A stretch of DNA of 64,000 bases from Telopea speciosissima (taxonomy: Eukaryota; Streptophyta; Magnoliopsida; Proteales; Proteaceae), in assembly GCF_018873765.1 (NCBI RefSeq), contig NC_057924.1, positions 12,487,001 to 12,551,000 on the forward strand, written 5' to 3'. Each line of letters opens with the position of its first letter. Position 1 is the first letter of the stretch. The notes below the pieces were generated by a model that was given only the letters and a program-made list of their open reading frames with translations, made no database searches and had not been told where the DNA came from. Shown in pieces: positions 11,900-47,124 of the stretch. Both the position numbers and the translations under genes were made by a program.

Positions 11900-14800
11900 A
11901 TGGCGGATCGTGATAAACAACATGCGAAGGGCAAGTAAAAGATGGGGGAAAGTAGTCAACAAAGGGGGCGAAGGGAACAAAGAGAACAGAGGGAACAAGA
12001 GAGACCAACCAGCCAGCATAGGGGTGACATTGCATGGTTACATGGTACTCCCATTGATGGGGATAAGAGAAAATCTATATGTAACTATTGTCACATGCAA
12101 TTTATGGGAGGTGGGTCCAGTAGACTTAAACAACATCTGACTGGAGGATCTAAAGATGTTGTAGGTTGTCATATGGTCCCTACTGAAGTAGTCAGGGAGA
12201 TTGGTGATAGTTTGAGGGCAAGAAAGAAGAGGAAGGCTGACAAGCAAAGGATAAGAGAACAACTTAAGGATACAGTGAGGAGTTCGATGGGAGGAGGAAG
12301 ACGATACAATGATGATGATGATGATGATGACTCCTCGATGATGATGATGACATTGCGATCGATGACATACAAACAAGCGAGGAGGCTAGGGATTTTAGGC
12401 GAACTGTTTCAAGGAGTAGAGTAAGTTTTCAAGATGATCGCAGAGACAAAGAGTAGGGGGTAGTGGAGGAGTGGCGATTCTGGAGGTCCTAGTACTTTGA
12501 ATCCTTTTAAAAGATCACAAAGTGTGAGGGCAGCCCCAACACCTCTACCAGTACCAGTACCACCATTAACATCTGATCCTAAATTGCATAAGAAGAAAGG
12601 AAGCAGTCAACCCAGAATCAAAGGAGTATGGAAGGGGATGAAGGGATTGGTTAAAGAATCAATAGCTAAGTGGATGCTATACCATACCATCCCAGCAAAC
12701 ACTGCACAAGGCCCCCATTATGATACCATGATAGATACCATTGCAGAGGTTGGCCCAGGATTCAAGGGCCCCACCCCATATGAGGTAATGAATGTTTATC
12801 TACCTCAACAAAAGAGTGAGATTGATGAGTACATTAGTGAGATGAGGATTATGTGGGAGACATATGGGATGACTATAATGACAGATGGATGGACTGGGCC
12901 TACAAGAAAGTCCATCATCAATTTCATGGTTTATTGTGATGGGAGGACAGTGTTCCTCAAATCTGTGGATGCATCCAAAGAGATAAAGGATGCAAAATAT
13001 ATTTACAGATTGTTAAAGGAAGTAGTGGGAAAAGATGTGGGTATTGAGAATGTTGTCCAGATTGTAATGGACAATGGAAGTAACTTCAAGCTGGCCGGTG
13101 AGAAGATGATGAACAATAGTAAGTACCGGCTCTTCTAGACTCCTTGTGCAGCCCATTGCATTAACTTAATGCTAAAAGATATGGGAAAGTTAAAGTTGGT
13201 GAAGACTGTGGTTGAAAGTGCAAGACAAGTCACCAACTTTGTATACAACCACTCCTATGCACTCAATCTATTGAGAAAAAAATATGGGGGTGACTTGGTT
13301 AGGCCTGGCATCACAAGATTTGCCACCAACTACATTGCCCTCAAAAGCATTGAGACAAAGAAGGCCGGGCTGAGAAGCATGTTTGCTTCTGAGGAGTAGT
13401 TTGAATGGAAGGGTTCCAAGACTGCAAATGGGAGGGAAGCACAAGCAACGATGTCATCTGAGGACTTCTGGACCAAACTAAGCAAAGTGGTGAAAGTTTT
13501 AGAGCCAGTAGTTAAAGTTCTACATGTTGCTGACTCCGCTCTGAAGGGCCCAACCATGTCAGTCCTATATGCTGCAATAGACTTGATGAAAGATAGTGTC
13601 TATAGTGTGACTCCTCGCAGTAGCAAACACTTCTTAGATATCATAAATGCTCGCTGGGAGAATTAACTTATGCATCCACTGCATAAGGTTGGTGAGTAAA
13701 TTTATTTTATGTTTACTAATTCATAGTATTATTATTTACTAATTACCTATGCATTTGACAATACCTCTATTCTATATGTCATATTTCAGCATACTACTTG
13801 AACCCTAAGTATCAATATAACAATAAGCTTGGGTTGGAAACTCAACTTATTGATGCTGTGAAACAAGTAGTGAAGAAGTTGGAGCCAGATGGTGCACTAC
13901 AAGTAATTTGCAATAATGAGGTGAGTTCATTTGAAAACTCAACTTATTGATGCTTTCAAATAAGTAGTGAAGAAGTACTTACTAATTTTTCACATGGGTG
14001 TAGATCAAGGTATTTAGGGATGCATTGGGAAGTTTTGGAACTGAGGCTACGATACAAGGCAGAGCACGTGGTGATGCTGGTAATTCTTTTAAGTTTTAAA
14101 TTACATATGTATTGAAATTTAAAAGTTGAAAGTTGAAACAACATTTGACACATGTCTTTTTTGTTGTAAATTTGTAATGCAGCTGAATGGTGGGTGTTGT
14201 ATGGGGAATCGACTGAAAACTTAAGAAGAATAGCAATTAAAGTCCTTGTCCAAACATGTTCTGCATCTGGTTGTGAGAGGAACTGGAGTACCTTTGCACT
14301 CATCCACTCCAAGAGCCACAACAGATTGGGGTCTCAACGTTTATCTGACATGGTGTATGTGCACTACAACTTGAGGCTGAAACTGCAACACATACGCATG
14401 GGACATGAGGAACAGAGGGGCACCATTGATCTAGCTGACATCTTTCAAGTTGACTCAGACGATGAGGACCCTATTGTGGATTGGGTGAGGGATAGAGGTG
14501 AGCCAGTGTTGGATGAGGAGGGAGGTAGGTCCGACCCCATGATAGCTTCTGAGATTGGTGCTGATGTGGACGAGTATATGGCTGACGAGGGTCAGATACA
14601 TGCAAGGGAAGCCTCACCTATACCATTCCAGCCCACTGGTGGCAATGTTGCTGATGATGAAGACTGGTATAAGTCCTCAAATGATGATGATGGTGATGAT
14701 GGTGATGCTAGTGGTGGTGATGGTGATGCTGGTGGTGGTAATGCTGGTGGTGGTGATGTTGGTGGTGGTGATGCTGGTGAAGAATTTGACGGCATTCTAG

Positions 14801-15292
14801 AGCGTTATGTGGTAGGCCAGGAGGCCCAGGATACGACACCTGTAGAGCCACTCTGATTCACTGGAGAGACACAGTTTGATCATGCCACACAAGATACGGA
14901 CCACGGAGCACGTGCCCCTGCACCCCCACCCTCGAGAGGCCCCCTACATACATACAACAGGAAGCGTAGGGGTCGACAAACACAGTTGTAACCTGATCAC
15001 ATGGACATTGATAACCTATCTAGCTCTATTGGTGGTTTGAGTATGGGTGATAGGGAGGGAGGACCGACTGGACATTGGCGTGCCCCATCTTTTGACGCAC
15101 ATACCACTCCATTGGCATCGGATTATGGTGCATCACAACCTTACGGTGGATATGGATATGGATCATCATCATATGGGCAGTTTAGTAGGGTAGGGGACTA
15201 TGACTACCAGTCCCAGTCCCAGGGACATACTGGATCATCTTTTGTAGATAACATCTTTGCATACCCTAGCGGACCTAGCTACCAACCTCACC
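11900..15292 (+). pseudogene. hAT transposase (BED zinc finger, DUF659, hATC), decayed, main part
   Basis: The reading frame from ATG 11900 encodes a BED-type finger (CNYC...HL at ~12080-12140), a basic region, then DUF659 sequence (~12580-13250, with TDGWTGPTRKSIINF and PCAAHCINLML) and a following catalytic-core segment. Apparent introns lie at ~13692-13789, 13921-14007 and 14081-14182. The hATC dimerisation region follows: EWWVLYGES and CERNWSTF at ~14183-14370. An acidic, Gly/Asp-rich tail leads into the gypsy insertion point. In-frame stops are at 11936, 12422, 12461, 13136, 13397, 13664, 14854 and 14989. Several look like single C-to-T or G-to-A changes (e.g. the expected W before TPCAAHC). 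Frame is otherwise maintained, so decay is by point mutation. It is a DNA-transposon protein, not a host gene. Confidence 0.87.
15288..15292. repeat. 5-bp target-site duplication (left) of the gypsy element
   Basis: TCACC immediately before the TG of the first LTR. It is repeated at 28444-28448 immediately after the CA of the second LTR. Five bases is standard for Ty3/gypsy integration. Confidence 0.93.
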
Positions 15293-18057
15293 TGTCACGC
15301 CCCTATTCCAGACAAGGAATATAATATCATATAAAGGGTGACTAGGACGACGCGTGTCATCCTACTAAACCGCCCGGATCACTGACACAGTGTCCCAACG
15401 CACAGTCATATCCAATATTAACACAATATAATATCAGAATGCAGAAAAGAGGAATATTACATTCCAAGGATCAGTAGTATTGCGGAAGCGTATAAATCGA
15501 ATAGTTACAAGATGTTCAAAGCTAGATGATAAATACAGTAATTAGTTACATTTCCAATGATCATCTAATAACTATCAAAAATGGTATTACAGTAAGTATT
15601 TCACCATAGGCCTTAGCCTCAAAAGTAATCAAAAAGGGATCGAGTCCCGAATATCCTCACGGCCCGTAGGCACAATCATCGCAAGGACACCCGTCGCCAT
15701 GTTCCTCAAACACGGCCTCCGGTTCCTCCTCACCGATCTCATCGTATCCCGAGGGCTGAACTCCAAGTCCCGCGAGATATCCTTCACCTGCACCATAATC
15801 TAAAAAAATGTGCGCACGAGGGGTTAGCTCCAGGCCGAGCGTGAGGGGATGGGAATGCACAAACACGCAATTCACATAGTCCAATGATGCATGCACATGT
15901 TAAGTTCATTTTTCCACCTAACAAACAACTAAGTCAATGGCATATGCTATCGTGACAACTCGGGAGACACGTGGGTCACTTAACTTATCGCCACAATGAA
16001 ACCTCAATTGTCACGTGGGACCTACGCCGATCGAAGCCTCCAAGACCACTCAGTGGCAGACCCCTGATAACCAATACTACCATGACTGGCCTCTCCCACC
16101 TCCACAGAATCCGGTGTACTGATTACCCAACACCTAAACCCCTGTTGGTAAGGGTCGTAGCATAAGGGTGTGAAATCCTAGCCACAATATACTACATGCA
16201 AGTCCTATCGTCCCGAGAGGTAATCCGGGCGCATCAACTTTTCATCTGGTTTAGTGCCCGGTTACCAGCACGGCACGGCGCATACAGTTCAACATGACAT
16301 TCAACATAATTTCTTCATAAATGTTTATAGAGTTCGGGGTTCCGGCACCGGTACCCACCGGCACCGAGACCCATCAAGATACAACATTACCAATCAACAT
16401 TATAACAAATAGATATAAAATTATGCAATATGCGCAAACATGCTTATTAATTATAATGAGTACATAATATATAATGCAATAATAATAACAAGCCCATACA
16501 ACCAAACCCACTCACAACGTATACGCCAAGCACCCAGTTTATCAGTTGTCGCCTCGATCAAGCAATAAGCCACAAAAGTGAATATTTTAACCTATACAAA
16601 GAGTGGAATAAGGTTAAACGAGCGAAAGGAACGGATCCCCAAAAGATCTCCCATAAACACTTAAGTATAAGGTTTCAGAGACGAAGTGGTTGCAGGAGTG
16701 GTTTCATGCCCAAATTCTGCAACCACATGTAAATCCTAGGAAACCGGGACAGTTTTAGTCAAGGTCGGATGCAGATGTGGTTTCAGAAAAACTGAATCCA
16801 AGTGTAAATCCGACCTTCACAGAATCCTTCTCGGGAAGGTAGTTTCAGGGGGGTTTCTTGCAGGTCTGAAATCACATGTAACCCTCACACCTTCAGGTCC
16901 AAAATCCGAAGGATTCCCCTCCAAGGACCCCATTTCAAGTGGTTTTTAAGGCACAAGGACTTCTAGAAAACTCTATCCTAAGCTCCTTAGGGTCCAACCT
17001 TAAATCTCCCAAATGGCAATGAGAACCCTCACATTAGAGCTCATAATGGAGTGAACTAACTCCACCATAGCTTGGCTTTAAAGCTCCATCTACTCCCTAG
17101 GTTCCAAGAGAGATCTAGGTCAATCCCTCCCATTACCCAACCCCTTTTTGAAATCCAAAATAGACGAAGGAAGAAGCTTACCTACCCCCAAGATGAGAGC
17201 TCCACGATTTCTGGCCCAAGAGATGGGGTCTCCACCTTCCTCCAAGCCTCTCTCTCCTTCCTCTTTCTCTTCCTCTCCTCTTTCTCTCCTCTTTCTCTCC
17301 TCCACGATTTAGGGTAGAAGAGGATGTTGAAGAAGAAGTGATGTTCTCTCCCCCTCCTCCTCTCTTTTATAATAAATGGGTCTATGGGTACCCTTAGTCA
17401 AATGGGTCATGAGGCCTAATGGGTCAACCCATTAGTCCTATGTGGGTAAGTGGATGGAATAACCCATCATTGGGCCAATAGGTTAAATGGGCCTGCCCAC
17501 AACCTTAATTAAGGAAAAGCCCATTCTTAGATGGGCTCATATGAGATGGGTATAAGTCCCCAATGTACTTCCTAAAGGTACGCGGGACCCGAACTTAAAT
17601 TATTCCCTTCTCTCATGAAATAGCTCGAGCGGTTCAAGCCCGGACCCGCACTTCGAGGTTACCAAGGGAAGAATAATTAATAAGACTTGAGGCTAGAACT
17701 TACTTTTCCCCCTGTCATGGTTTATTACCCATGACCCCGAACAGCTTCGCCACGGCAACGCTAAGCTCATCACCGAACGAAATATCCAGCTGAGGTGACG
17801 GTCCAGGATGCTCTCTCCTGAACTCCTCGCTTCCCGGGCTGGTACTTGGAGGGTAGTCGACGAAGTCGCCGTCCACGAACTTTCCCCACTGGCGGTTGAG
17901 GAATCTTTCCTCCACAGGCAAACCCGTGCTGTGGTCAACGATTTTGTAGCTAGGTTTGACCATCATGGAGAACAGGTCACCAGCATACATGGCAGCGGTA
18001 TCTACACGTCACGAGAAGAAATGATATTTAATTATATCCCGGGGTACGGGTATAACA
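15293..18057 (-). repeat. 3' LTR of the gypsy element
   Basis: 2,765 bp, TGTCACGCCCC...TATAACA. It is the 3' LTR because gag-pol reads on the minus strand. A 91-residue sense-strand frame (17715-17990) lies near the start of U3 and is duplicated in the other LTR. The end of pol appears to read into this LTR, as is known for some chromoviruses. Confidence 0.93.
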
Positions 18058-18070
18058 TCCCCCCCCACCT
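18058..18070 (-). other. Polypurine tract
   Basis: On the minus strand this reads AGGTGGGGGGGGA directly against the 3' LTR. This is the usual place and composition for the primer of plus-strand DNA synthesis. Confidence 0.8.
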
Positions 18071-21000
18071 TATAAGAAATTTCGTCCTCGAAATTTGACG
18101 TACCTTGTAAATAGGCAAGAAAAGGGTATTTTGCCCGCATTTCTACCTCTGCCTCCCAAGAAGCTTCCTCTTCCGGATGGTTGCACCATTTTATCTTCAC
18201 ATAATGAATGGGCGGTTGCGAAGATGAACAACCTTCTGTCCAAAATCTTTTAGCGACTCTTTATAGGACATGTCGGCCGCAAGTTACGGTGGTTCATGCG
18301 TCAATACATGGCTTGGATCATGGACATACTTCCTCAACATAGACACGTGGAAGACGTCGTGCACACCTTCTAAAGATGGAGGGAGTGCTAACCGATATGC
18401 CACCGGTCCAATCCGTGCAAGGATCTCAAAAGGTCCTATAAATCTCGGACTCGGCTTGCCCTTCTTGTGAAACGCATCACCCCTTTGGAGGGTGATACCT
18501 TAAGGAACACTTTATCGCCAACAGTGAACTCAAGGTCCTTCCTTCTCAAGTCCGCATAACCCTTGCTCTGGATGAGCCGCCTTGATCCGCTCACGAATCA
18601 AGTCCACCTTCTCGCATGTTGCCTGAATCAACTCGGGTCCAAGAATACGCCGTTCACCTACTTCGTCCCAATATAACGGTGTCCGACACTTCTTCCCATA
18701 TCGAGCCTCAAACGGTGCCATGCCTATAGTAGCCTGGTAATCGTTATTGTAAGCAAACTCAATAAGTGAGAGATGCTCGTCCCGTGCCTTGCATATCAAT
18801 GGCACAAGCTCGGAGCATATCTTCTAATGTCCGAATAGTCCTCTCCGATTGTCCGTCGGTTTGATGGTGGAAGGCTGTACTAAAACTCAACAGTGTACCC
18901 ATTGCCTTCGAAACCCTCCCAGAACTTAGATGTAAATCGGGATCCCGATCGGAGATGATCTTGCGACAGAACTCCGTGTAGACGAACTACATTATCAATG
19001 TACAAGTGAGCCAGCTTGTCCATCGAATAGGTAATCTTCATGGGGATGAAGTGAGCCGTCTTTGTCAATCTGTCAACGACAACCCATATGGTATCGACAC
19101 CTCTAGGCGTGCGGGGCAACCCGGTGACAAAATCCATGGTAACATGCTCCCACTTCCACTCTGGAACAGGCAATGACCGTAAGAGGCCATGAGGTCTTGT
19201 CGTCCGCCTTCACTGCGACAAGTAAGACATTTTGCCACATACTCAGCCACATCCCTCTTCATTCCACTCCACCAAGAATATTCCTTGAGATCTCTATACA
19301 TCTTCGTACTACCTGGATGAATAGAATAGGGAGAGTCATGGGCCTCGCTAACACTTCCTTCCTCAACTGAGGGTTACTAGGAACACATAGCCGTTGTCTG
19401 AACATGAGAACACCACTCTCTGTTAAAGTAAAATCCAGTTCCCGCTGCGTGTCCCCCTTGATAGCCTCGATAACCTTTTGAACCTCCTCATCAGAAGCCT
19501 GGGCTGATTGAATTCGCCCTACCAGTGTGGATTGTATTGATAAAGCTGATAGAGATAAGGTAACACCATCAACCAGTAATTCCAGGTCCATCCTTCTAGC
19601 TTCCTCGATGAGTTTCTCACTGGCTGCTAGTGATGCCAGTGACAAGGACTGAGATTTCCGGCTCAGCGCATCCGCTACTACATTTGCCTTGCCTGGGTGG
19701 TAATGGATAGTACAATCATAATCTTTCAACAACTCCAACCACCGTCGCTGCCTCATATTGAGCTCCTTTTGTGTAAAGAAGTATTTGAGGCTCTTGTGAT
19801 CACTGTATATTTCGCTCTTCTCACCATATAAATAATGTCTCCGGATCTTGAGCAAAAACCACATGCAAGCTCCAAATCATGGGTCGGGTAGTTCTTCTCA
19901 TAGTCCTTCAATTGCCGAGAAGCATAGGCCACTACCTTCCCATCTTGCATTAGAACACAACCCAAACCCATTTTAGATGCATCATGTAGACTACCATCCC
20001 TCCAGTACCATTAGGAATGGTAAGTACTTGGAGCGGAAACCAACCTCGCTTGAGCTCTTGGAAGCTCTTTTCACATGCTATCGACCACTCGAACTTCACT
20101 CCCTTCCGGTCGATCGTGTCATAGGAGCGGAGAGCCTTGAGAAGTTCTCAATAAATCTCTGTAATATCCAGCTAGTCCCAGGAAACTACGAATGTCCGCC
20201 ACATTCTTGGGTATCGCCAATCAACTATCGACTTCACCTTGCCAGGGTCAACCTCTATACCCTTACCAGAAACAAGGTGTCCCGAAATGCCACTGTTGTA
20301 GCCAAAACTCACACTTACCGAATTTGGCGTACAATCGCTTCTCCCTTAGGCGTTGCAATACTAGGCGGAGATGGTCCGCATGCTCCTCGTCGCTCTTGGA
20401 ATAGACCAAGATGTCATCAATGAAGACAATGACATACTTGTCTAGAACATCGTGGAACACCCGGTTCATCAACTCCATAAAAGCGGCCGGGGCATTGGTC
20501 AGCCCGAAGGACATGACCAAGAACTCATAATGACCATAGCGAGATCTCGAATCTTTGTCTTGCGATATCACTATTTCGATCTTCAATCGATGGTACCCGA
20601 CCGGAGATCAATTTTCGAGAACACCTTCGCACCTGTAGTTGATCGAATAGATCATCGATCCTAGGCAAAGGATACCGGTTCTTGATTGTCAATTTGTTGA
20701 GCTCACGGTAGTCAATGCACAGACACATACTACCGTCCTTCTTTTTCACAAACAACACAGTGCTCCCCAAGGAGATACACGGTCTAATGAAACCCTTCTT
20801 CAACAGGTCATTCAACTGCTCTTGTAGCTCCTTTAGCTCAGTTGGGGCCATCCTGTAAGGTGCCTTGGATACTGGGGCTGCACCAGGAATCAGATCTATC
20901 ATGAACTCTGTCTCGCGATCTGGTGGCAACCGCGTTAGATCCTCAGGAAAGACATCTGGAAAGTCTTTCACCACGTACAACTCTTCCAAAGGCCTGCCTT

Positions 21001-21487
21001 TGGCTTCAGTGTCTATCACAGATGCTAGATAACACTGACATCCCTCTGCCAACAACTTCTGTACTTGGAGGGCAGAGATGATAACTTTCTTGGGTCTCTC
21101 CCGCTTAGTACCCATAAACACAAACTCTTCACCTTCAGCTGGTTTGAATAGAACCTTCCTCTCTGAACAGATTAGACTGGCTTTGTGAGTTGATAGCCAA
21201 TCCATTCCCAAAATCACATCAAAGTCTTTCATATCCAGCAGTACTAAGCTTGCTTCGAGTCCGTGACCACCCACACATACCGGGCAAGGATCACAAACCG
21301 AGTTAAGTTCAACCTTGCTACCCGTTGGTGTACTGACTATCAGTTTCTGGGCCATTAGCTTTGGTTCAATGGACATCTTCTTAGCAAAACTAGGGGACAC
21401 AAAAGAGTGTGATGCCCCCGAATCAAATAAAGCATAAGCAGGCTGAGAGCAAACAAGAACGACACCTGACAAGCAACAGACAACCAA
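18071..21487 (-). pseudogene. Gypsy pol remains: protease, RT, RNase H, integrase, chromodomain
   Basis: Recognisable parts in minus-strand order are an aspartic protease with LFDSGASHSF (~21420); reverse transcriptase with VKKKDGS...CIDYRELNKLTIKN (~20700) and the [10 protein letters not shown] catalytic region (~20410); RNase H with [10 protein letters not shown] (~19800); integrase with its zinc-binding start (~19250) and the core with MDFVTGLPR and [11 protein letters not shown] (~19100); and a chromodomain with W-x2-HPEEEASWE (~18160). The reading is broken in roughly six to ten places, so no functional polyprotein is made from this copy. Family: Ty3/gypsy chromovirus. Confidence 0.88.
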
Positions 21488-21518
21488 TCATAGAAACAAA
21501 AGCTATTATATGCACATC

Positions 21519-22859
21519 TTAAGAGTAGAGTGCATTACCTGTAATAACACTGGGATCGGCCTGGGCCTCTTCATTTGTCACAGAATACACCCGACCTTGA
21601 GATCTATGGGCCGGAGCAGAAGAAGAGAACGCACAATCGCTTGGCTTGGGGTGCCTTCGTAGCCGCACTGGAGGACCTATCATCCGCGGATGAGGACAGT
21701 CTCGAACCATATGCCCGGACTCCTTGCAATTGTAACATATGAGAGTCTGGGAACCATAGTGAGGAGTTGATGTAGGCCTGGGTGCTTGCACCGCATCTGA
21801 CCTCCGGGACTGGACCGGAAAAGTAGTAGTGTAAGATCCTCTCTTTTGGAATTTTGTGGATCCCCTAGGTTCATGAGAGGTCATGGGCCTTTTACCAGCC
21901 TGAATGGCCCTGTAATTCTCTCTCTGCTGGTCCTCAATCACCTTAGCGGCCTGGACCGTCTCAGCATAAGTACGGTACTTGTGTAGCACCACAGAAGTAC
22001 TAATGCTAGGTCTAAGCCCCTTCTCAAACTTTCTAGCCTTCACATTCTCGGCCTTCATGTGTCCGGGCGAAGTAAAACGACTCCTCAAAAGCTTTTGGTA
22101 CTCAAGGACCGATTTGGATCCTTGAAAGAAGCTCATAAACTCAGACTCCTTCCTATCACGGAAGTTTTGAGGGAAGAAATTTTTGAAGAATACTTCCTTG
22201 AATTGAGCCCAAGTTGCCTCTCGGGTGAGTTGCCCAAAAATGGTCTTTAGAGGAGAGCCACCACGCATCGAATCACCCCGGAGCTGGTAGGTAGCACACC
22301 GGATCTTGTCCGTGTCATTGCACTGTATCACTTCAAAGATTCTCTCAAGATCCCTTATAAATGTTGCCGGGAAAAAGGAATCATGGGCCATCTTGTAGAA
22401 GGTTGGAGGACGATGTTTCTGAAATCTCTCCGATAACCTAGCAGCATCCACCCAAGCCGGAGTCACCGCTTGGACCGAAGGAGCCACAGAAGTGGAAGGT
22501 AGAATAGGTGCTGGCACCTCTTGTGTCAAAGGAATTCGGCAGTGGCTTGAGCCAGGAGGAACACTAGGTACAGCAGAACCCACGGGCAGGTGGGGAGGAT
22601 TGACTTGCACAGGAGGAGGCACTGGCTGCCTTTCCCTAACAAAGGCTTGGAACATAGCAGTCATGTTTTGCATAAATTGGCGCTGCTCTTGTTGCGCCTC
22701 CCTATGCTCTCGTTCCATGGATTGCAACCTATTGCTCAACAACGCGGCGACATCCGCATTATTACTAATTGGCGGTGCTACCGGTAGAACCGTATTCGAA
22801 GCCTCACCGGCCTCTTCCCTAGCAGGAGAACGGTTGGCATTTGACCGTGTATTAACCAT
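21519..22859 (-). CDS. Gypsy gag (capsid/nucleocapsid) open frame
   Basis: A 446-residue open frame. An N-terminal Pro-rich region precedes the retrotransposon gag domain (RDLERIFEVIQCNDTDKIR, then WAQFKEVFFKNFFP). One CCHC zinc knuckle lies at ~375-388 (CYNCKESGHMVRDC), followed by a short basic tail. It belongs to the element at 15293-28443, downstream of the 5' LTR and leader. It appears largely whole, unlike pol. Confidence 0.85.
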   Translation of the reverse strand: MVNTRSNANRSPAREEAGEASNTVLPVAPPISNNADVAALLSNRLQSMEREHREAQQEQRQFMQNMTAMFQAFVRERQPVPPPVQVNPPHLPVGSAVPSVPPGSSHCRIPLTQEVPAPILPSTSVAPSVQAVTPAWVDAARLSERFQKHRPPTFYKMAHDSFFPATFIRDLERIFEVIQCNDTDKIRCATYQLRGDSMRGGSPLKTIFGQLTREATWAQFKEVFFKNFFPQNFRDRKESEFMSFFQGSKSVLEYQKLLRSRFTSPGHMKAENVKARKFEKGLRPSISTSVVLHKYRTYAETVQAAKVIEDQQRENYRAIQAGKRPMTSHEPRGSTKFQKRGSYTTTFPVQSRRSDAVQAPRPTSTPHYGSQTLICYNCKESGHMVRDCPHPRMIGPPVRLRRHPKPSDCAFSSSAPAHRSQGRVYSVTNEEAQADPSVITGNALYS

Positions 22860-24162
22860 GGTTCACACCTGGTTACAGTCAACACCCACAGTTATAGGCA
22901 CAATTGCAATATTAAGCAAACCAATCAAAAAATCGATTTGCAAAGGTAAACATAGGTTACACGAGGGGTAAGGGAAGCAATAATGAGGGTAATAAACATT
23001 AGAAACAAGTTGGTTAAGCAAAACAGGGTCAAAAAAACCCTTTCTGGCCGGGTCGGATTTACATGCGGTTTCACTAGGCTGCATCCGAGTGTAAATCCGA
23101 CCTTCACAGGACCAAAGGCTGGTCTCGGGAATCCGCGGATTCACAGTCGGATTCAAAATCTTGCATCCGAGTGTAAAACCGCATGGCCCAAAAACAGAAT
23201 TTCTCACTCGAACTCTCTTTCAAAACCCAAATTTCTTTTTCCAAACACTCCCTACGCTCTGGAGAACCCAAAACCGCACTCGTTCCTTGCTCCCTCTCCC
23301 TTCTAGGTGGATTTTTGGCACTCAATCCACGCACAACAGCTCCGATCGAGTTCAGGTATGCCCTCTTCCCTCTCTATCGATCTATCTCTTTCTCCTTTCG
23401 ACTTCTATTATGGAGAAACCCCAAAATCCATTTCGGGTTTACAAGATTTGGGTTTTTTTGTTTTCTCCTAGCTATTTAGATGGATTTTTGTCCATCCTAC
23501 CTTCGTTTCCCTTCATATGCAACCTAGTTGGGGCATTTCCCCCAATCTTGCACCATCACCAAGGGTTTGGGTTGGATTTTGGAGAAATCCCCAAACCCTA
23601 ACCGAAATTCTATGTCTTTTTGCCCAATTCAAGTTCGGTTTTGCTAGGTAGGCTTGGTGTATATAATTTGGGGTTGTCTCAAGCCATTACTTATTTATTT
23701 CTTGCAAATTGGAACTTCAAGAATCACATCTGAATTTTCTTTTAGAGATTCAAGCATTATTTACCACAATTTAGCTCCATATATTGCTTGAACTAGGTAT
23801 TTAGTATAAACTTCATGTGTTAGGTGTACTATGGCCATGTATGTATATTGTTTACCATGTCATTCAACTTCCAAACACAAAACTGAAAATTTCCTCTTTG
23901 GATCTCTTAGTATATTTCTTATCAAATCAGTCCAACTTTGTTTGAACTAATTGCTTGTATGATATAATGCTTCTCCAAGCATAATGTGGCCATGTACATT
24001 TATCCTCTATGAGTGCATCTACATGTTGGCCATGCATCAAGGTCTAGGTTCTAATTCCTTGTTTCTTTTCATTGTATATCTTCTTAGGCCTTAATATCCA
24101 AGCATTAACTTAATATATTTCTGTATTCTCGGCCTTCTTTGGTTGCAGGTTAGGGAATCTAA

Positions 24163-25311
24163 ATGGCTCCTAGAACAAGGCGTGCACGGGCCGAACAAGC
24201 TGCCCCAGTTGCTTTGGATACGCAATGGTTCCAAGACCTAGAGAAACAGGAGATGTACCAAGACCACTTTCGCTTTAAGAATATCTTGGAGGGAAGAGAT
24301 GTGGTACTGGAAGACCTCAAGGCCTACAAGGTAGGGCCGAGATTTGAAGCACTGGGGTGGTCCAACCTCCTCAACCTTCCAGAGCCATTCTATCCCAAGC
24401 TCGTTCGTCACTTCTACGCCAACCTGCACACCGAGAACCTAGGCACACGAGATTACCGGATCCTCTCTTATGTCAAGGGAGTCACCATATCCTTCACAGG
24501 GGCACAGTTGGCAGGCATCCTCAATGTAGCTATCTGGGGAGAGAAGACCTATTGCGCACCATGGAAGAATCCCTACTCCTTTCTCAGGAGAGAGGCATAC
24601 AGGGAGTTATACAGGGAGCTTACACGTGGGGCATTCGAGAAGAAAGTGCCTGAGACTTCTTTTGCCAATTCTCCCAGGATACTGAGTCGGATTGTGCAGC
24701 ACAACATCGTGCCTATAGCCGGTCACCGCACCATGCCTTCCATCTTCGTAGGCTATGTGGCCTATCACCTCTACAAAGGTATCCCCATCTGCCTGCCCTA
24801 CATTATCATGCGGACCATGGATCATGCGGGGCGAAATCCCAGGAGGAACTTAGATTTACCCTATGGGAGGTTGCTCACTACTATTTTCCAGCATTTTGGA
24901 GTTGACTTGAGTGAGGAGGATCAAGACTTAACCGAAGATCCACCTCTAGATCGTAACGCAGTGGCGAGGATGCGAATTGCGATGGATGCATATAGTGATG
25001 GGGAGCCATTGGTCCCAGCAGAGGGTCACGGGCCTGAGCCTCAGGTACAGGAGCCTCCTCCTCAGCCGGCTGTGCATGCGGCCTCTTCATCCGGCACTGC
25101 TCCTAGTGGGTCTGACATCGACAGGATTCTTGCAACTCTGGGCCAGATGAGCACCAGCATGGCTCAGGGGTTTGAAGGAGTGAACACTAGGCTCGATGCA
25201 TCAGACAGACGCATGGAGAGCCTCGAGCAGCAGATGGAGGACTTGCACTCCTACCTCCATGATGAGGGCACAGAGGACGAGCCCAGTAGTGATGATGAGA
25301 TGGAGCAGTAG
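24163..25311 (+). CDS. Antisense accessory ORF in the gypsy leader, 'putative plant transposon protein' domain
   Basis: A clean 382-residue frame on the strand opposite gag-pol, between gag and the 5' LTR. Residues ~20-250 resemble the plant 'putative plant transposon protein' domain (FYPKLVRHFYANL, then YVKGVTISFTGAQLAGIL). A Pro/Glu-rich linker follows, then a probable coiled coil at ~325-365 (RLDASDRRMESLEQQMEDL) and an acidic tail. The start is preceded by TTGCAG at ~24142-24147. A plausible GTATGC donor lies at ~23355 after a pyrimidine-rich leader, so the transcript may have a ~790-base intron in its 5' UTR. Function is unknown: no nuclease, polymerase or capsid motif is visible. Family assignment is from memory. 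Confidence 0.72.
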   Translation: MAPRTRRARAEQAAPVALDTQWFQDLEKQEMYQDHFRFKNILEGRDVVLEDLKAYKVGPRFEALGWSNLLNLPEPFYPKLVRHFYANLHTENLGTRDYRILSYVKGVTISFTGAQLAGILNVAIWGEKTYCAPWKNPYSFLRREAYRELYRELTRGAFEKKVPETSFANSPRILSRIVQHNIVPIAGHRTMPSIFVGYVAYHLYKGIPICLPYIIMRTMDHAGRNPRRNLDLPYGRLLTTIFQHFGVDLSEEDQDLTEDPPLDRNAVARMRIAMDAYSDGEPLVPAEGHGPEPQVQEPPPQPAVHAASSSGTAPSGSDIDRILATLGQMSTSMAQGFEGVNTRLDASDRRMESLEQQMEDLHSYLHDEGTEDEPSSDDEMEQ

Positions 25312-25691
25312 ACCTCCTGTCCATTCCCACCATGCTCTCAATGGACCCCTAGCTTTTTGTCTTACCATGCAGCAAATTTATTTTTCTTTTTCTTGGTTGT
25401 AAGAATTCGAAGTCTACAGTTCAGCTGAATTTTGTTGTAATCACTCATTTGGCTTATGGAAATGTATTAACAGCTGAACCTAAGGAATATATCTATAAAT
25501 ATATACACATGTCTTTTCCTTCCACTGTTGTGCCTATTATTTGCTATTGTCTTCGGCTTTCTCCCTAAGCTAGCCTTCTCCCTAGCATTCACACACATTC
25601 AATTATGCATTGTTAGAAGCTTTTATTTTAGCAACCTATTGTGTAGAGTAAATCACAATTCCGCTAGACTGTGGCTGGTGCAGAGCATCTC

Positions 25692-25703
25692 GCTCTGATA
25701 CCA
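25692..25703 (-). other. Primer-binding site (initiator Met-tRNA)
   Basis: The minus strand reads TGGTATCAGAGC, the common plant primer site complementary to the 3' end of initiator methionine tRNA. It is three bases inside the 5' LTR, which fixes the element's orientation. Confidence 0.93.
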
Positions 25704-25706
25704 CGC

Positions 25707-28443
25707 TGTCACGCCCCTATTCCAGACAAGGAATATAATATCATATAAAGGGTGACTAGGACGACGCGTGTCATCCTACTAAACCGCCCGGATCACTGAC
25801 ACAGTGTCCCAACGCACAGTCATATCCAATATTAACACAATATAATATCAGAATGCAGAAAAGAGGAATATTACATTCCAAGGATCAGTAGTATTGCGGA
25901 AGCGTATAAATCGAATAGTTACAAGATGTTCAAAGCTAGATGATAAATACAGTAATTAGTTACATTTCCAATGATCATCTAATAACTATCAAAAATGGTA
26001 TTACAGTAAGTATTTCACCATAGGCCTTAGCCTCAAAAGTAATCAAAAAGGGATCGAGTCCCGAATATCCTCACGGCCCGTAGGCACAATCATCGCAAGG
26101 ACACCCGTCGCCATGTTCCTCAAACACGGCCTCCGGTTCCTCCTCACCGATCTCATCGTATCCCGAGGGCTGAACTCCAAGTCCCGCGAGATATCCGTCA
26201 CCTGCACCATAATCTAAAAAAATGTGCGCACGAGGGGGTTAGCTCCACTGAGCCAGTGAGGGGATGGGAATGCACAAACACGCAATTCACATAGTCCAAT
26301 GATGCATGCACATGTTAAGTTCATTTTTCCACCTAACAAACAACTAAGTCAATGGCATATGCTACTGTGACAACTCGGGAGACACTGTGGGTCACTTAAC
26401 TTATCGCCACAATGAAACCTCAATTGTCACGTGGGACCTACGCCGATCGAAGCCTCCAAGACCACTCAGTGGCGACCCGATAACCAATACTACTATGATG
26501 GCCTCTCCCACCTCCACGAATCCGGTGTCGATTACCCAACACCTAAACCCCTGTTGGTAAGGGTCGTAGCATAAGGGTGTGAAATCCTAGCCACAATATA
26601 CTACATGCAAGTCCTATCGTCCCGAGAGGTAATCCGGCGCATCAACTTTTCATCCGGTTTAGTGCCGGTTACACAAGACGGCACGGCGCATACAGATTCA
26701 ACATGACATTCAACATAATTTCTTCATAAATGTTTATAGAGTTCGGGGTTCCGGCACCGAGACCCATCAAGATACAACATTACCAATCAACATTATAACA
26801 AATAGATATAAAATTATGCAATATGCGCAAACATGCTTATTAATTATAATGAGTACATAATATATAATGCAATAATAATAACAAGCCCATACAACCAAAC
26901 CCACTCACAACGTATACGCCAAGCACCCAGTTTATCAGTTGTCGCCTCGATCAAGCAATAAGCCACAAAAGTGAATATTTTAACCTATACAAAGAGTGGA
27001 ATAAGGTTAAACGAGCGAAAGGAACGGATCCCCAAAAGATCTCCCACAAACACTTAAGTATAAGGTTTCGAGACGAAGTGGTTGCAGGAGTGGTTTCATG
27101 CCCAAATTTCGCAACCACATGTAAATCCTAGGAAACGGGACGTTTTAGTCAAGGTCGGATGCGGATGTGGTTTCGAAAAACTGAATCCAAGTGTAAATCC
27201 GACCTTCACGTAATCCTTCTCGGGAAGGTAGTTTCGGGGGGTTTCTTGCGGTCCGAAATCACATGTAACCCTCACACCTTCAGGTCCAAAATCCGAAGGA
27301 TTCCCTCCAAGGACCCCATTTCAAGTGGTTTTTAAGGCACAAGGACTTCTAGAAAACTCTATCCTAAGCTCCTTAGGGTCCAACCTTAAATCTCCCAAAT
27401 GGCAATGAGAACCCTCACATTAGAGCTCATAATGGAGTGAACTAACTCCACCATAGCTTGGCTTTAAAGCTCCATCTACTCCCTAGGTTCCAAGAGAGAT
27501 CTAGGTCAATCCCTCCCATTACCCAACCCCTTTTTGAAATCCAAAATAGACGAAGGAAGAAGCTTACCTACCCCCAAGATGAGAGCTCCACGATTTCTGG
27601 CCCAAGAGATGGGGTCTCCACCTTCCTCCAAGCCTCTCTCTCCTTCCTCTTTCTCTTCCTCTCCTCTTTCTCTCCTCTTTCTCTCCTCCACGATTTAGGG
27701 TAGAAGAGGATGTTGAAGAAGAAGTGATGTTCTCTCCCCCTCCTCCTCTCTTTTATAATAAATGGGTCTATGGGTACCCTTAGTCAAATGGGTCATGAGG
27801 CCTAATGGGTCAACCCATTAGTCCTATGTGGGTAAGTGGATGGAATAACCCATCATTGGGCCAATAGGTTAAATGGGCCTGCCCACAACCTTAATTAAGG
27901 AAAAGCCCATTCTTAGATGGGCTCATATGAGATGGGTATAAGTCCCCAATGTACTTCCTAAAGGCACGCGGGACCCGAACTTAAATTATTCCCTTCTCTC
28001 ATGAAATAGCTCGAGCGGTTCAAGCCCGGACCCGCACTTCGAGGTTACCAAGGGAAGAATAATTAATAAGACTTGAGGCTAGAACTTACTTTTCCCCCTG
28101 TCATGGTTTATTACCCATGACCCCGAACAGCTTCGCCACGGCAACGCTAAGCTCATCACCGAACGAAATATCCAGCTGAGGTGACGGTCCAGGATGCTCT
28201 CTCCTGAACTCCTCGCTTCCCGGGCTGGTACTTGGAGGGTAGTCGACGAAGTCGCCGTCCACGAACTTTCCCCACTGGCGGTTGAGGAATCTTTCCTCCA
28301 CAGGCAAACCCGTGCTGTGGTCAACGATTTTGTAGCTAGGTTTGACCATCATGGAGAACAGGTCACCAGCATACATGGCAGCGGTATCTACACGTCACGA
28401 GAAGAAATGATATTTAATTATATCCCGGGGTACGGGTATAACA
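25707..28443 (-). repeat. 5' LTR of the gypsy element
   Basis: 2,737 bp and near-identical to the copy at 15293-18057. Most visible differences are one- to few-base indels, including one short duplicated stretch in the other copy. They are concentrated in the first half in plus-strand order. The 17.0-18.0 kb and 27.4-28.4 kb portions are almost the same base for base. Confidence 0.93.
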
Positions 28444-28448
28444 TCACC
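28444..28448. repeat. 5-bp target-site duplication (right) of the gypsy element
   Basis: TCACC, matching 15288-15292. Confidence 0.93.
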
Positions 28449-44055: not shown

Positions 44056-47000
44056 TCAATGAAACCGGTTGTGGAAGTGACGAAGATTCACAACAACGAT
44101 CACAAAGAGTCTGTCTATAATATTTTCCAAGAAACAGAAATAGGCACGCCTCCATGATTTCTTCACAATCAAGCTACCACAAACTCCCCAAAATCCCACG
44201 ATGAAACCCAATGCCATGCCACTGTAGAACCATATCTTTTCTTCTTCATCATCGTTGCCGTTAGAAACCCCCTCATCTTGGGGTGTTTCATCACCATCAT
44301 CATCACCGGGGCACTTGTTTGAAAGCGGTGGACCACAAAGTTGTGGATTACCAAAGTAATTGGATGATTCACTGAGCGTTTGAAGTTGGTTCCCAGAAGG
44401 TATTCTCCCTGACAAGTTGTTATGGGAGAGATTCAAGTGACTCAAGAAATTTAAGGATGACATGCTTTGTGGAATCTCCCCAGAAAGTTGGTTCCCTGAG
44501 AGATCAAGGCTTTCTAATAATTTCATGTTCCCAATATTCTTTGGGATTTTCCCAGTTAGATGATTTATCGACAAATTCAAAAGAACCATTGTTGAAAGCA
44601 TTGTTATCCCTGTTGGTATGTTTCCTGATAAATTATTGTTTGAAAGGTCCACAACCTTAATTTACCATTTCAAGAATCCAACCTTGGTATGCAAGTTCTC
44701 TTCCTTTTGCAACAATACTCATGGTTTCATGATTTTCAACAGGCCCTATTATCTCTCGATCAATAAAACCACTCAAATTGCCTAAACATGTTGGAATGAA
44801 TCCTGAAATTTTGTTTTGAGCTAGAACCAAGATGCGAAGATAGGTAAGATTACATACCTGTTGAGGAATTTTTCCAGTGAATGAGTTTGCCCGTAGATTT
44901 AGCATCGTCAGATGCAGTAGGTTCTCTCCAATCCATGTTGGTAAGATTCCGGAGAAGTTATTATTGCCAAGGTCAAGACTAACCAAAGATGTGCAATATT
45001 TTAGAGATGACGGAAGCTCCCCATAAAGACGGTTGTTGCTCAATATCAATCTTTCAAGGGAAGGCAGAAAACCTATCGAACTTGGAATTTTACCAGATAA
45101 GTTGTTGTTCGATAGATATAGAAATCCCAAACTTTGCATAACCTTCCAATCAATAGACGACAGTTCTCCAGATAAATGATTGTTTGAAAGATCTAATTCA
45201 AACAACAATGGCATTGTTTGACCAAAGTTGGAAGGAATTGGCCCTGAAAATAAATTTTGTCCGAGGAATAGGGAGGACAAATTAGTAGAAGAACATAGAG
45301 AAGGGAGAGGACCTTCTAAGTGGTTTGAGCTCAAGTCCACTTGGTAGGTGTCCTGTCTAACAATGCTTGCTGGCATGGTACCACGCAGTCTGTTTCTGGA
45401 GAGATCCAAATATTGGAAGGAGAACGACTTCCAAAACCATCCTGGTATGGTGTCTGAAATACTGACATTCCTGAGGGTTAAATCGGTAAGTAGATTTTGA
45501 CTTCTAAGCCATTGTGGAAAATTAACCATTGGAAAGTCGAACAATTCCAAATAATCAAGTTTAAAAGGAGGAACCCATTCTTCTGCTTGTTCTCACATCA
45601 AAAACCAAATTGTTGTTTCTAGACATTGAAGATATTGATAATTTTTTCAAATTTGTGAGTTTTGTAAAATGATGTTCCGAAGTTGAACCCTCCCAGTAAT
45701 TCCATGATATATCCAAAGAGACCAAATTTGAGAGTTGTCGCCCGAAGCTTTCAGGAATGGGCCCACTTATTTGATTATCAGAGAGATCCAAATAGACCAA
45801 ATTTGAGAGTTGTCGTCTGAAGCTTTCATGAGGAATGGGCCCACTTATTTGATTAGAAGAGAGATCCAATTGTTTCAAGGACAAGAAGCGTCCAATTGAT
45901 ATAGGCAAATGCCCACTTAGCCCACTATAACTCCAAACTAAAATCTCCAGGCTCTTGTTAATTACTACCGAATCCAGACAAACCATCTACAAATGCACCC
46001 ACATCACCACCACCACCACCAACGTAGTTGGATGACAAATCTAGCCTACGCAACTTCCATAGACTTCCTACCAGCAACTGCTGGGCTCTTCCAGATGCAG
46101 CATCTCCACCTCCAATACTGTGAATACTACTAATGTTGTTGGAATAAGAGAAGTTAAGGATGAGTTGATTTGAGTTAAGATCAAGATCTTCAAGGCTGCT
46201 AATATTTAACAACCAATGTGGTAGAAAGGAATTATTAAAGTAGTTCCCAGAGAGATCAAGCACCGAAAGGGATGTAAAATTAACAACAATTGATGATGGA
46301 AGGGTATCAGAAGAAGAAGGAAGTGTTTGGAGTTGGCAATAAGACAACTTTAACTCTCGAAGCAAAGAAAGCTTATTAAAAGCTTGGAACCAATCATCTG
46401 CTGCATTGCTAAGGTTGACGTATCCCATATCGAGGTACTCCAAAGAAGAGAGACCGGAGATCCAGTCCAAGTTGTCTACACGCAAAACCTTATAATAACT
46501 CTCACTAAAGGAATCGAAGTCATTACCCAAAGAAGAAAGATCTAGATGATGCAAGGTAGATAGGTTTCCCAGGTGAGGAGGAACTGTGCCAACAAATAAT
46601 GAATGAGAGAGATTGAGGTACCTCAACTTCTTGAATGAACCAAGAAAGTTTGGGATTTGAATTCCCCCAAAATCATTCGAGCTCAAATCCATGTATTTCA
46701 ACTGTTTCAAGTTTAGCAAAGAAGGGTTTATCTCACCGCTCAAGCGTGACCTCATGAACGCTTCAGTAGCAGTATTATCATCATCAAAAGGATATTGAGA
46801 TGGGTTGTGGAGGTTGAGGTGGATCACATGTCCAGTTCTGTTACTGCAACGTACCCCTCTCCATCTGCAACAATCTTCTTCATCGCCAGTTGTCCAAGAA
46901 GAGAGCCGGCAAGCATGATCTTGATTGATACCTTCTTTGAACTTGAGGAGTGCCTTCCTCTCCATCTCTTTGCAACGCACGTTGTTGGGGGGATCTCCAT

Positions 47001-47124
47001 TATTAATAATAGGATTGCACGAACTGAACCCCACCTGTAAGAATATAAAAAGCAGCAGCAAAAGAAGAATGGACTTATTGCTGCTGCTGCTACTACTGCA
47101 ATCCATCATGAATTCATAACTCAC
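44056..47124 (-). pseudogene. LRR receptor-like protein (EIX2/Cf type), coding frame disrupted at three points
   Basis: The protein runs as a signal peptide (~18-36, LLLLLLFIFLQVGFSSC), a plant LRR N-terminal domain with WRGVRC, a long LRR array, an LRR C-terminal cap with NPQLCGPPL, an acidic stretch, one membrane helix ([19 protein letters not shown]) and a short basic tail without kinase. This is the receptor-like protein layout of the EIX2 group, which senses fungal elicitors with partner kinases. The frame breaks near 45965, 45580 and 44655; each is accounted for by one extra base. The 3,069-base span minus three is exactly 1,022 codons, i.e. 1,021 residues, the family's usual length. 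It is either a very young pseudogene or an intact gene with consensus errors. It is intronless and lies between epoxide hydrolases 1 and 2 on the opposite strand. Confidence 0.85.

Follow-up and report, generated by a model that had tools for sequence, protein, structure and literature searches.

The 2011 survey by Steinbauerova et al. is reportedly the key earlier survey of extra open reading frames (ORFs). A reverse-oriented class, eORF-5′R, comprises extra ORFs of at least 250 codons located upstream of gag-pol, and the text describing it treats the function of extra ORFs in plant LTR elements as an open question (Neumann et al. 2019, PMC6317226). This text, to which our comparison refers (figures and supplements lie outside it), does not name Transposase_32 and does not discuss introns of 5′R ORFs or selection on them. 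Extra ORFs between the 5′ LTR and gag are also described for Tekay-type elements, namely ORF0 of Retrosat2, RIRE3 and RIRE8 (PMC3485330, considered in part) and the 5′aORF of sunflower Tekay 13-2, which is found in 500 of 523 elements, in sense (+) orientation and without a known domain (PMC11728184, considered in part). ORF0 is fast-evolving and was not detected beyond the grasses; in the part of the source considered it is described as “upstream”, without an orientation, and was compared by description only (PMC3485330). Antisense ORFs at the 3′ side are represented by Grande gene23, which has its own promoter and encodes a nuclear protein, and by RIRE2, Retand ORF4 and PvRetro13 (PMC7264820).

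Antisense and 5′ extra ORFs are thus already known, and the gene analysed here is a member of the eORF-5′R class: it has 382 codons and lies on the + strand, between the primer binding site (PBS) and a gag gene on the − strand, in agreement with the definition in the survey text. It shares the place between 5′ LTR and gag with the Tekay-type 5′ ORFs, and the LTR 3′ terminus GGGCGTGACA of its host element is identical to that of Retrosat2 and RIRE8 (PMC3485330). Unlike the sunflower Tekay 5′aORF, as described in the part of the source considered, it is antisense, encodes the Pfam domain Transposase_32 (PF20167) and is preceded by an intron-like leader. It resembles the ORFs of Grande, RIRE2, Retand and PvRetro13 in being an antisense accessory gene, but those of the Grande, RIRE2 and Retand type are located between pol and the 3′ LTR, and the domains differ, with Transposase_28 in Retand and SMC in PvRetro13 (PMC7264820). 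The same domain PF20167 is present in ORF(+) of sunflower Athila 14, which is however in sense orientation, at the 3′ end, and belongs to a non-chromovirus (PMC11728184). In a limited literature search, confined to papers outside subscription, we found no Transposase_32 ORF in 5′ antisense position for which a conserved leader intron had been described and selection tested.

The window, i.e. the whole analysed stretch of 64,000 nucleotides from Telopea speciosissima, contains a complete Ty3/gypsy LTR retrotransposon on the − strand (15293–28443). Its extent was determined by alignment of the LTR pair and by reading its ends and the 5-bp TSD TCACC, which flanks the element at 15288–15292 and 28444–28448. 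The 5′ LTR (25707–28443, −), whose sense ends read TGTTATACCC...GGGCGTGACA, and the 3′ LTR (15293–18057, −) have a length of about 2.75 kb each and differ by 18 mismatches and 21 gap openings over 2777 aligned columns; because of these few differences the element appears to be young. Next to the 5′ LTR the sequence of a PBS, TGGTATCAGAGC, was read at 25692–25703 (−), which we take to be of the tRNA-Met type, and the purine-rich stretch GGTGGGGGGGGA at 18058–18069 (−), presumably the polypurine tract, abuts the 3′ LTR. The gag gene (21519–22859, −) is intact and encodes 446 aa with a capsid domain (PF03732, E 4e-9) and a zinc knuckle (PF00098, E 2e-7). As already noted, pol is broken: remnants of protease, RT, RNase H, the integrase H2C2 part, an SH3 tail and a weak chromodomain lie in several frames at 18012–21487 (−). 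The integrase was recognised by its H2C2 and SH3 pieces (SH3_Tf2-1, E 4e-25), the integrase core having no Pfam match, and the chromodomain match (PF00385, 19.6 bits, E 9e-4) is below the Pfam cut-off of 25.1. The affiliation to Ty3/gypsy is based on the LTR pair with TSD, the PBS, gag, protease, RT, RNase H and integrase. Judged from its sequence the element is probably a chromovirus-type LTR retrotransposon of the clade Tekay, an assignment that rests on the wording of the RT, which we take to be Tekay-like, and on the LTR terminus common with Retrosat2. Elsewhere in the window, ORFs at 11942–14856 look like pieces of a hAT-type transposase, and we assume that 44056–47124 (−) represents a leucine-rich-repeat receptor-like protein gene in pieces.

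The preliminary description of this locus had proposed an uninterrupted frame of 382 codons opposite gag, between the 5′ LTR and gag, encoding a plant-transposon-associated domain, a coiled coil and an acidic tail, and all of these features were recovered. The antisense accessory ORF extends from 24163 to 25311 on the + strand, and a TAA stop directly precedes its ATG. An origin of such a frame by chance was rejected: in 2000 first-order Markov versions of the sequence 22860–25705, read in six frames, the longest ATG frame had a median of 89 aa and a maximum of 251 aa, and the product shows a near-full-length match to PF20167. This match, found by an HMM search, covers residues 63–248 and profile positions 2–177 of 177 (E 7e-22; 78.6 bits vs. 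a curated cut-off of 45). The basic N-terminus precedes this domain, and a Pro-rich and acidic linker, a helix or coiled coil (residues 316–368) and an acidic tail (residues 369–382, net charge −7) follow it. The coiled coil is predicted from a helix in which the best of seven registers has 12 of 16 hydrophobic a/d positions. A structure model calculated from the single sequence was poor overall (mean pLDDT 41), with values of 63–90 in ten-residue blocks for residues 321–370, so that the C-terminal helix is the sole confidently modelled part. Searches with the ORF product revealed no sequence relatives in the PDB and no NCBIfam match, and no relatives were found with the single protein in a viral contig collection. 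A basic start was observed in every family read: MAPRTRR in the window, MAPRTRG in L069, MAPRQRG in L070, MPPRLRK in L074, MAPRRQN in L046 and MVRGQRN in L072.

The 823-Mb genome assembly (1287 contigs, 11 of them large) was searched for relatives of both genes. For the ORF 108 of 7811 candidates were scored, giving 113 matches or, minus 6 second pieces, 107 loci; the 30 copies analysed below are the best 30 of these by protein score. For gag 98 matches were obtained, which correspond to 95 loci after removal of 3 second pieces. Of these 95 gag matches 55 are paired with an ORF match on the opposite strand, 0.9–2.6 kb upstream of gag, and none with one on the same strand. All 55 pairs, the window's own included, fall among the 60 gag matches with at least 67% identity, and a match to exon 2 adds a 56th pairing (C8:2661790); for the other four of these 60 there is no ORF among the matches listed. 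Absence of the ORF from all related elements, which had been named as an outcome against a retained function, can thus be dismissed: it is present in most related elements examined. The remaining 35 gag matches are too divergent for the ORF list, and five of them were examined (L069, L071, L072, L073, L074). An ORF antisense and upstream of gag was found at four, i.e. L069, L072, L074 and L073, in the last case as ORF L070 about 4.8 kb from gag, while L071 has no ORF within about 4.6 kb. L069 had been chosen since a PF20167 match was already seen beside its gag, which does not apply to the other four. At L069 gag is 55% identical to that of the window, the ORF is 38% identical and the leader is not alignable; L072 and L074 contain ORF pieces with 31–45% identity.

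The primer site lies about 400 bp past the ORF stop in 22 of the 30 copies, and the gag start was found in 13 of the 14 copies long enough to reach gag, weakly in L038; L022 showed no gag start where the alignment would place one. Among 54 linked pairs, the similarity to the window is higher for the ORF than for gag in 39, equal in 1 and lower in 14, a comparison that is weak because it uses percent identities from search tables, the gag of the window may belong to another sub-branch and some ORF matches are partial. As a side observation, two gag relatives with 61–63% identity each lie in a frame that stays open for over 1000 aa, which means that a sister family has members with less damage.

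Selection on the frame was analysed in the 30 copies. Summed dN divided by summed dS was 0.158 (435 pairs); the value near 1 that would have spoken against a retained function did not occur, the ratio of 0.16 being well under 1. For biallelic variants the relative N/S decreased from 0.617 for singletons to 0.380 for variants present in 2 copies, 0.159 for those in 3–5 copies and 0.105 for those in 6–15 copies, a pattern that would result from constraint in active lineages and drift in dead copies. Differences at codon positions 1, 2 and 3 amounted to 0.037, 0.029 and 0.099. A constraint imposed by the sense strand only was rejected on the basis of this codon-position pattern, with third positions being the most variable. 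The acidic tail (pN/pS 0.022) and PF20167 (0.108) are the most constrained segments, and the linker (0.452) is the least constrained. Indels occur at 0.87 per kb in the CDS, compared to 11.5–20.7 per kb in six other intervals, one of which is a short 5′ stretch of gag at the alignment edge (17.6 per kb, 78 pairs). Inside the frame only 7% of the 433 pairwise indels have a length divisible by three, and they therefore represent damage; in-frame stops were found in 11 of the 30 copies and masked codons in 5 more.

Copies were selected according to their similarity to this protein, which lowers apparent dN, and several are at least 97% identical, as would be the case if the apparent conservation reflected recent amplification or the sampling of intact copies only. 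We give this explanation hardly any credence, as N/S falls with variant frequency, from 0.62 in singletons to 0.10–0.16 in shared variants, and as the ORF is retained in L069, despite its divergent gag and unalignable leader, and in pieces in L072 and L074. Both observations speak against the low dN/dS being a product of the bias in the choice of copies. As judged from these comparisons, the ORF protein is preserved by purifying selection in active lineages, and, as far as selection is concerned, the retained function suggested in the preliminary description is supported. The same data bear on the question whether the antisense RNA is what matters, the protein being secondary. A plus-strand transcript would have the complementary sequence of the leader stretch that immediately follows the PBS and could pair with it in the genomic RNA, thereby tuning silencing, packaging or translation, and regulation by dsRNA has been raised for antisense ORFs in a review (PMC7264820). 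Nevertheless, the constraint sits at the codon level, and the non-coding parts of the presumed transcript vary more, with more than 10-fold more indels, making this alternative unlikely. We regard it as very likely that the ORF is a functional, element-encoded protein gene.

Upstream of the ORF a pyrimidine-rich leader without ATG (23190–23355, +) is presumed to form exon 1, and by its position the region 22860–23189 (+) presumably contains the promoter of the antisense gene. A GTATGC donor and a TTGCAG acceptor ahead of the ATG had been taken as signs of a separate spliced transcript. Both are present (CAG/GTATGC and TTGCAG/G, with the slash marking the candidate exon–intron border) and delimit a presumed 5′UTR intron of 793 nt (23356–24148, +), whose acceptor is 14 nt 5′ of the ATG in the window. 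The splice sites have left a clear footprint in the 30 copies, with GT in 30 and AG in 29 of them. Per-base conservation is 28–30 copies across TTCAG/GTATG and drops to 5 at the next base; at the acceptor it is 29–30 across GGTTGCAG/GTTAGGG and 10 right after. The length of the candidate intron is 792–1063 nt in the 26 copies in which a pattern search caught both sites; three copies were not caught and L022 matched at another place. In five divergent relatives (L046, L069, L070, L072, L074) the leaders either fail to align to that of the window or align only in pieces of 16–23 bases, with E values of 0.02 or higher. Four of these five have YAG 13–14 nt ahead of the ATG, three of them reading TGTGTAG/GT, and L070 reads TTG; L046, L069, L070 and L072 have leader sequence in common and are not independent. 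A spliced genomic copy was not detected among 40 scored of 246 candidates, and the absence of intron-less copies is expected since the gene is antisense. The candidate intron is U-rich (T 39%, GC 37%) and contains 17 ATGs, so that a message retaining it would be translated poorly. The conservation of candidate donor and acceptor is the evidence that speaks for a separate spliced transcript, and on this basis it is quite likely that the antisense gene has its own spliced mRNA.

The motif GTGTAAATCCGACC was found on the + strand at 16802, 23089 and 27191 of the window, i.e. once in each LTR and once immediately ahead of the antisense leader, the copy at 23089 being part of a 57-bp stretch with 79% match to the 5′ LTR. 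A shorter core of GTGTAAATCCGACC is absent, in that orientation, from L069, L070, L072 and L074 and also from three of eleven family copies (L026, L034, L037). It is possibly a control motif shared by the LTRs and the antisense gene.

An acceptor-like YAG/GT is also present on the opposite strand, 9–10 nt before the gag ATG (window 22860–22871, −), in 17 of 17 sequences (window, L010, L011, L013, L014, L016, L020, L021, L030, L033, L037, L038, L069 and L071–L074, five of which are from divergent elements). This mirrors the antisense acceptor 14 nt before its ATG and supports mirror-image splicing, in which the antisense gene would lie inside a leader intron of the gag mRNA while carrying its own leader intron. 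A conserved sense donor for the acceptor-like site was not found in the leader or the LTR, and L071, one of the 17, has no antisense ORF within reach. We consider such an arrangement doubtful on these sequence data. If true, each strand's mRNA would splice out what blocks it and only the unspliced sense RNA, the genome, would keep both genes, so that mirror-image splicing would act as a two-strand switch between genome and message.

PF20167 is a common domain in the genome: all 150 sequences scored, out of 4975 candidates, matched it, and 53 of these 150 matches overlap the ORF-family list; the genomic context was read for a few of the relatives. The PF20167 ORF of L058 (G000:C5:31674268-31677801) lies downstream of, and on the same strand as, a sequence which we take to be a copia RNase-H-like motif, and according to this both superfamilies appear to contain the domain. 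Downstream of L043 and L064 there is a Met-type primer site in antisense orientation, and L063 and L066 have one with a mismatch; no such site was within reach in L039, L040, L041, L042, L046, L047 and L058. In a tree of the domain the window family groups with L043, L046, L069, L070, L072 and L074, as opposed to L039, L040, L047, L058, L063 and L064 (73% support), a split that would be compatible with one old acquisition of the domain.

The abundance of PF20167, the copia-like neighbour of L058 and the occurrence of Transposase_32 in the sunflower Athila ORF(+) (PMC11728184, considered in part) would suit a passenger, in which case an extra ORF of a different retrotransposon would have inserted long ago and been carried since then with no benefit to the element. 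An N/S of about 0.1 in shared variants, the recurrent place and the nearly intact splice sites are unlike a passenger; the idea is improbable as an explanation of the gene, and it is likely to account for its origin rather than its function. Still less probable is a captured host gene, which the element either retained or copied accidentally. The domain lacks a better description and gene uptake by LTR elements is possible (PMC7264820), but all relatives with readable context are in retrotransposons, and the leader intron would be lost in a capture through spliced RNA.

Taken together, we favour, as the rather more probable reading, an old, selected accessory gene that is antisense in the leader, has its own spliced mRNA and acts in trans in the nucleus. 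The gene is located on the strand opposite gag-pol, inside the 2.8-kb leader of the element, and a promoter of its own, lying between gag and exon 1, would drive its transcription. Splicing of the 793-nt leader intron with its 17 upstream ATGs would be required for translation, and the intron may persist because the genomic RNA is the other strand, so that it is not removed during retrotransposition. The protein would form oligomers and work in trans in the nucleus, as an accessory to, or a regulator of, the element's expression, its escape from silencing or its integration. The basic start, the predicted coiled coil and the acidic tail suggest an oligomeric nuclear protein, and the analogy with Grande gene23, which is nuclear and has its own promoter (PMC7264820), points in the same direction. 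A nuclear accessory or regulatory role, based on the basic N-terminus and on this analogy, is a tentative assignment with somewhat less than even chances.

The locus provides a 5′ antisense ORF that passes several tests together, namely purifying selection on the protein, a position that recurs even in divergent families, and conservation of candidate splice sites. It would represent a natural case of an intron persisting in a gene that is copied through RNA, since the gene is on the other strand. Furthermore, this allows direct tests of what PF20167 proteins do in plant retrotransposons.
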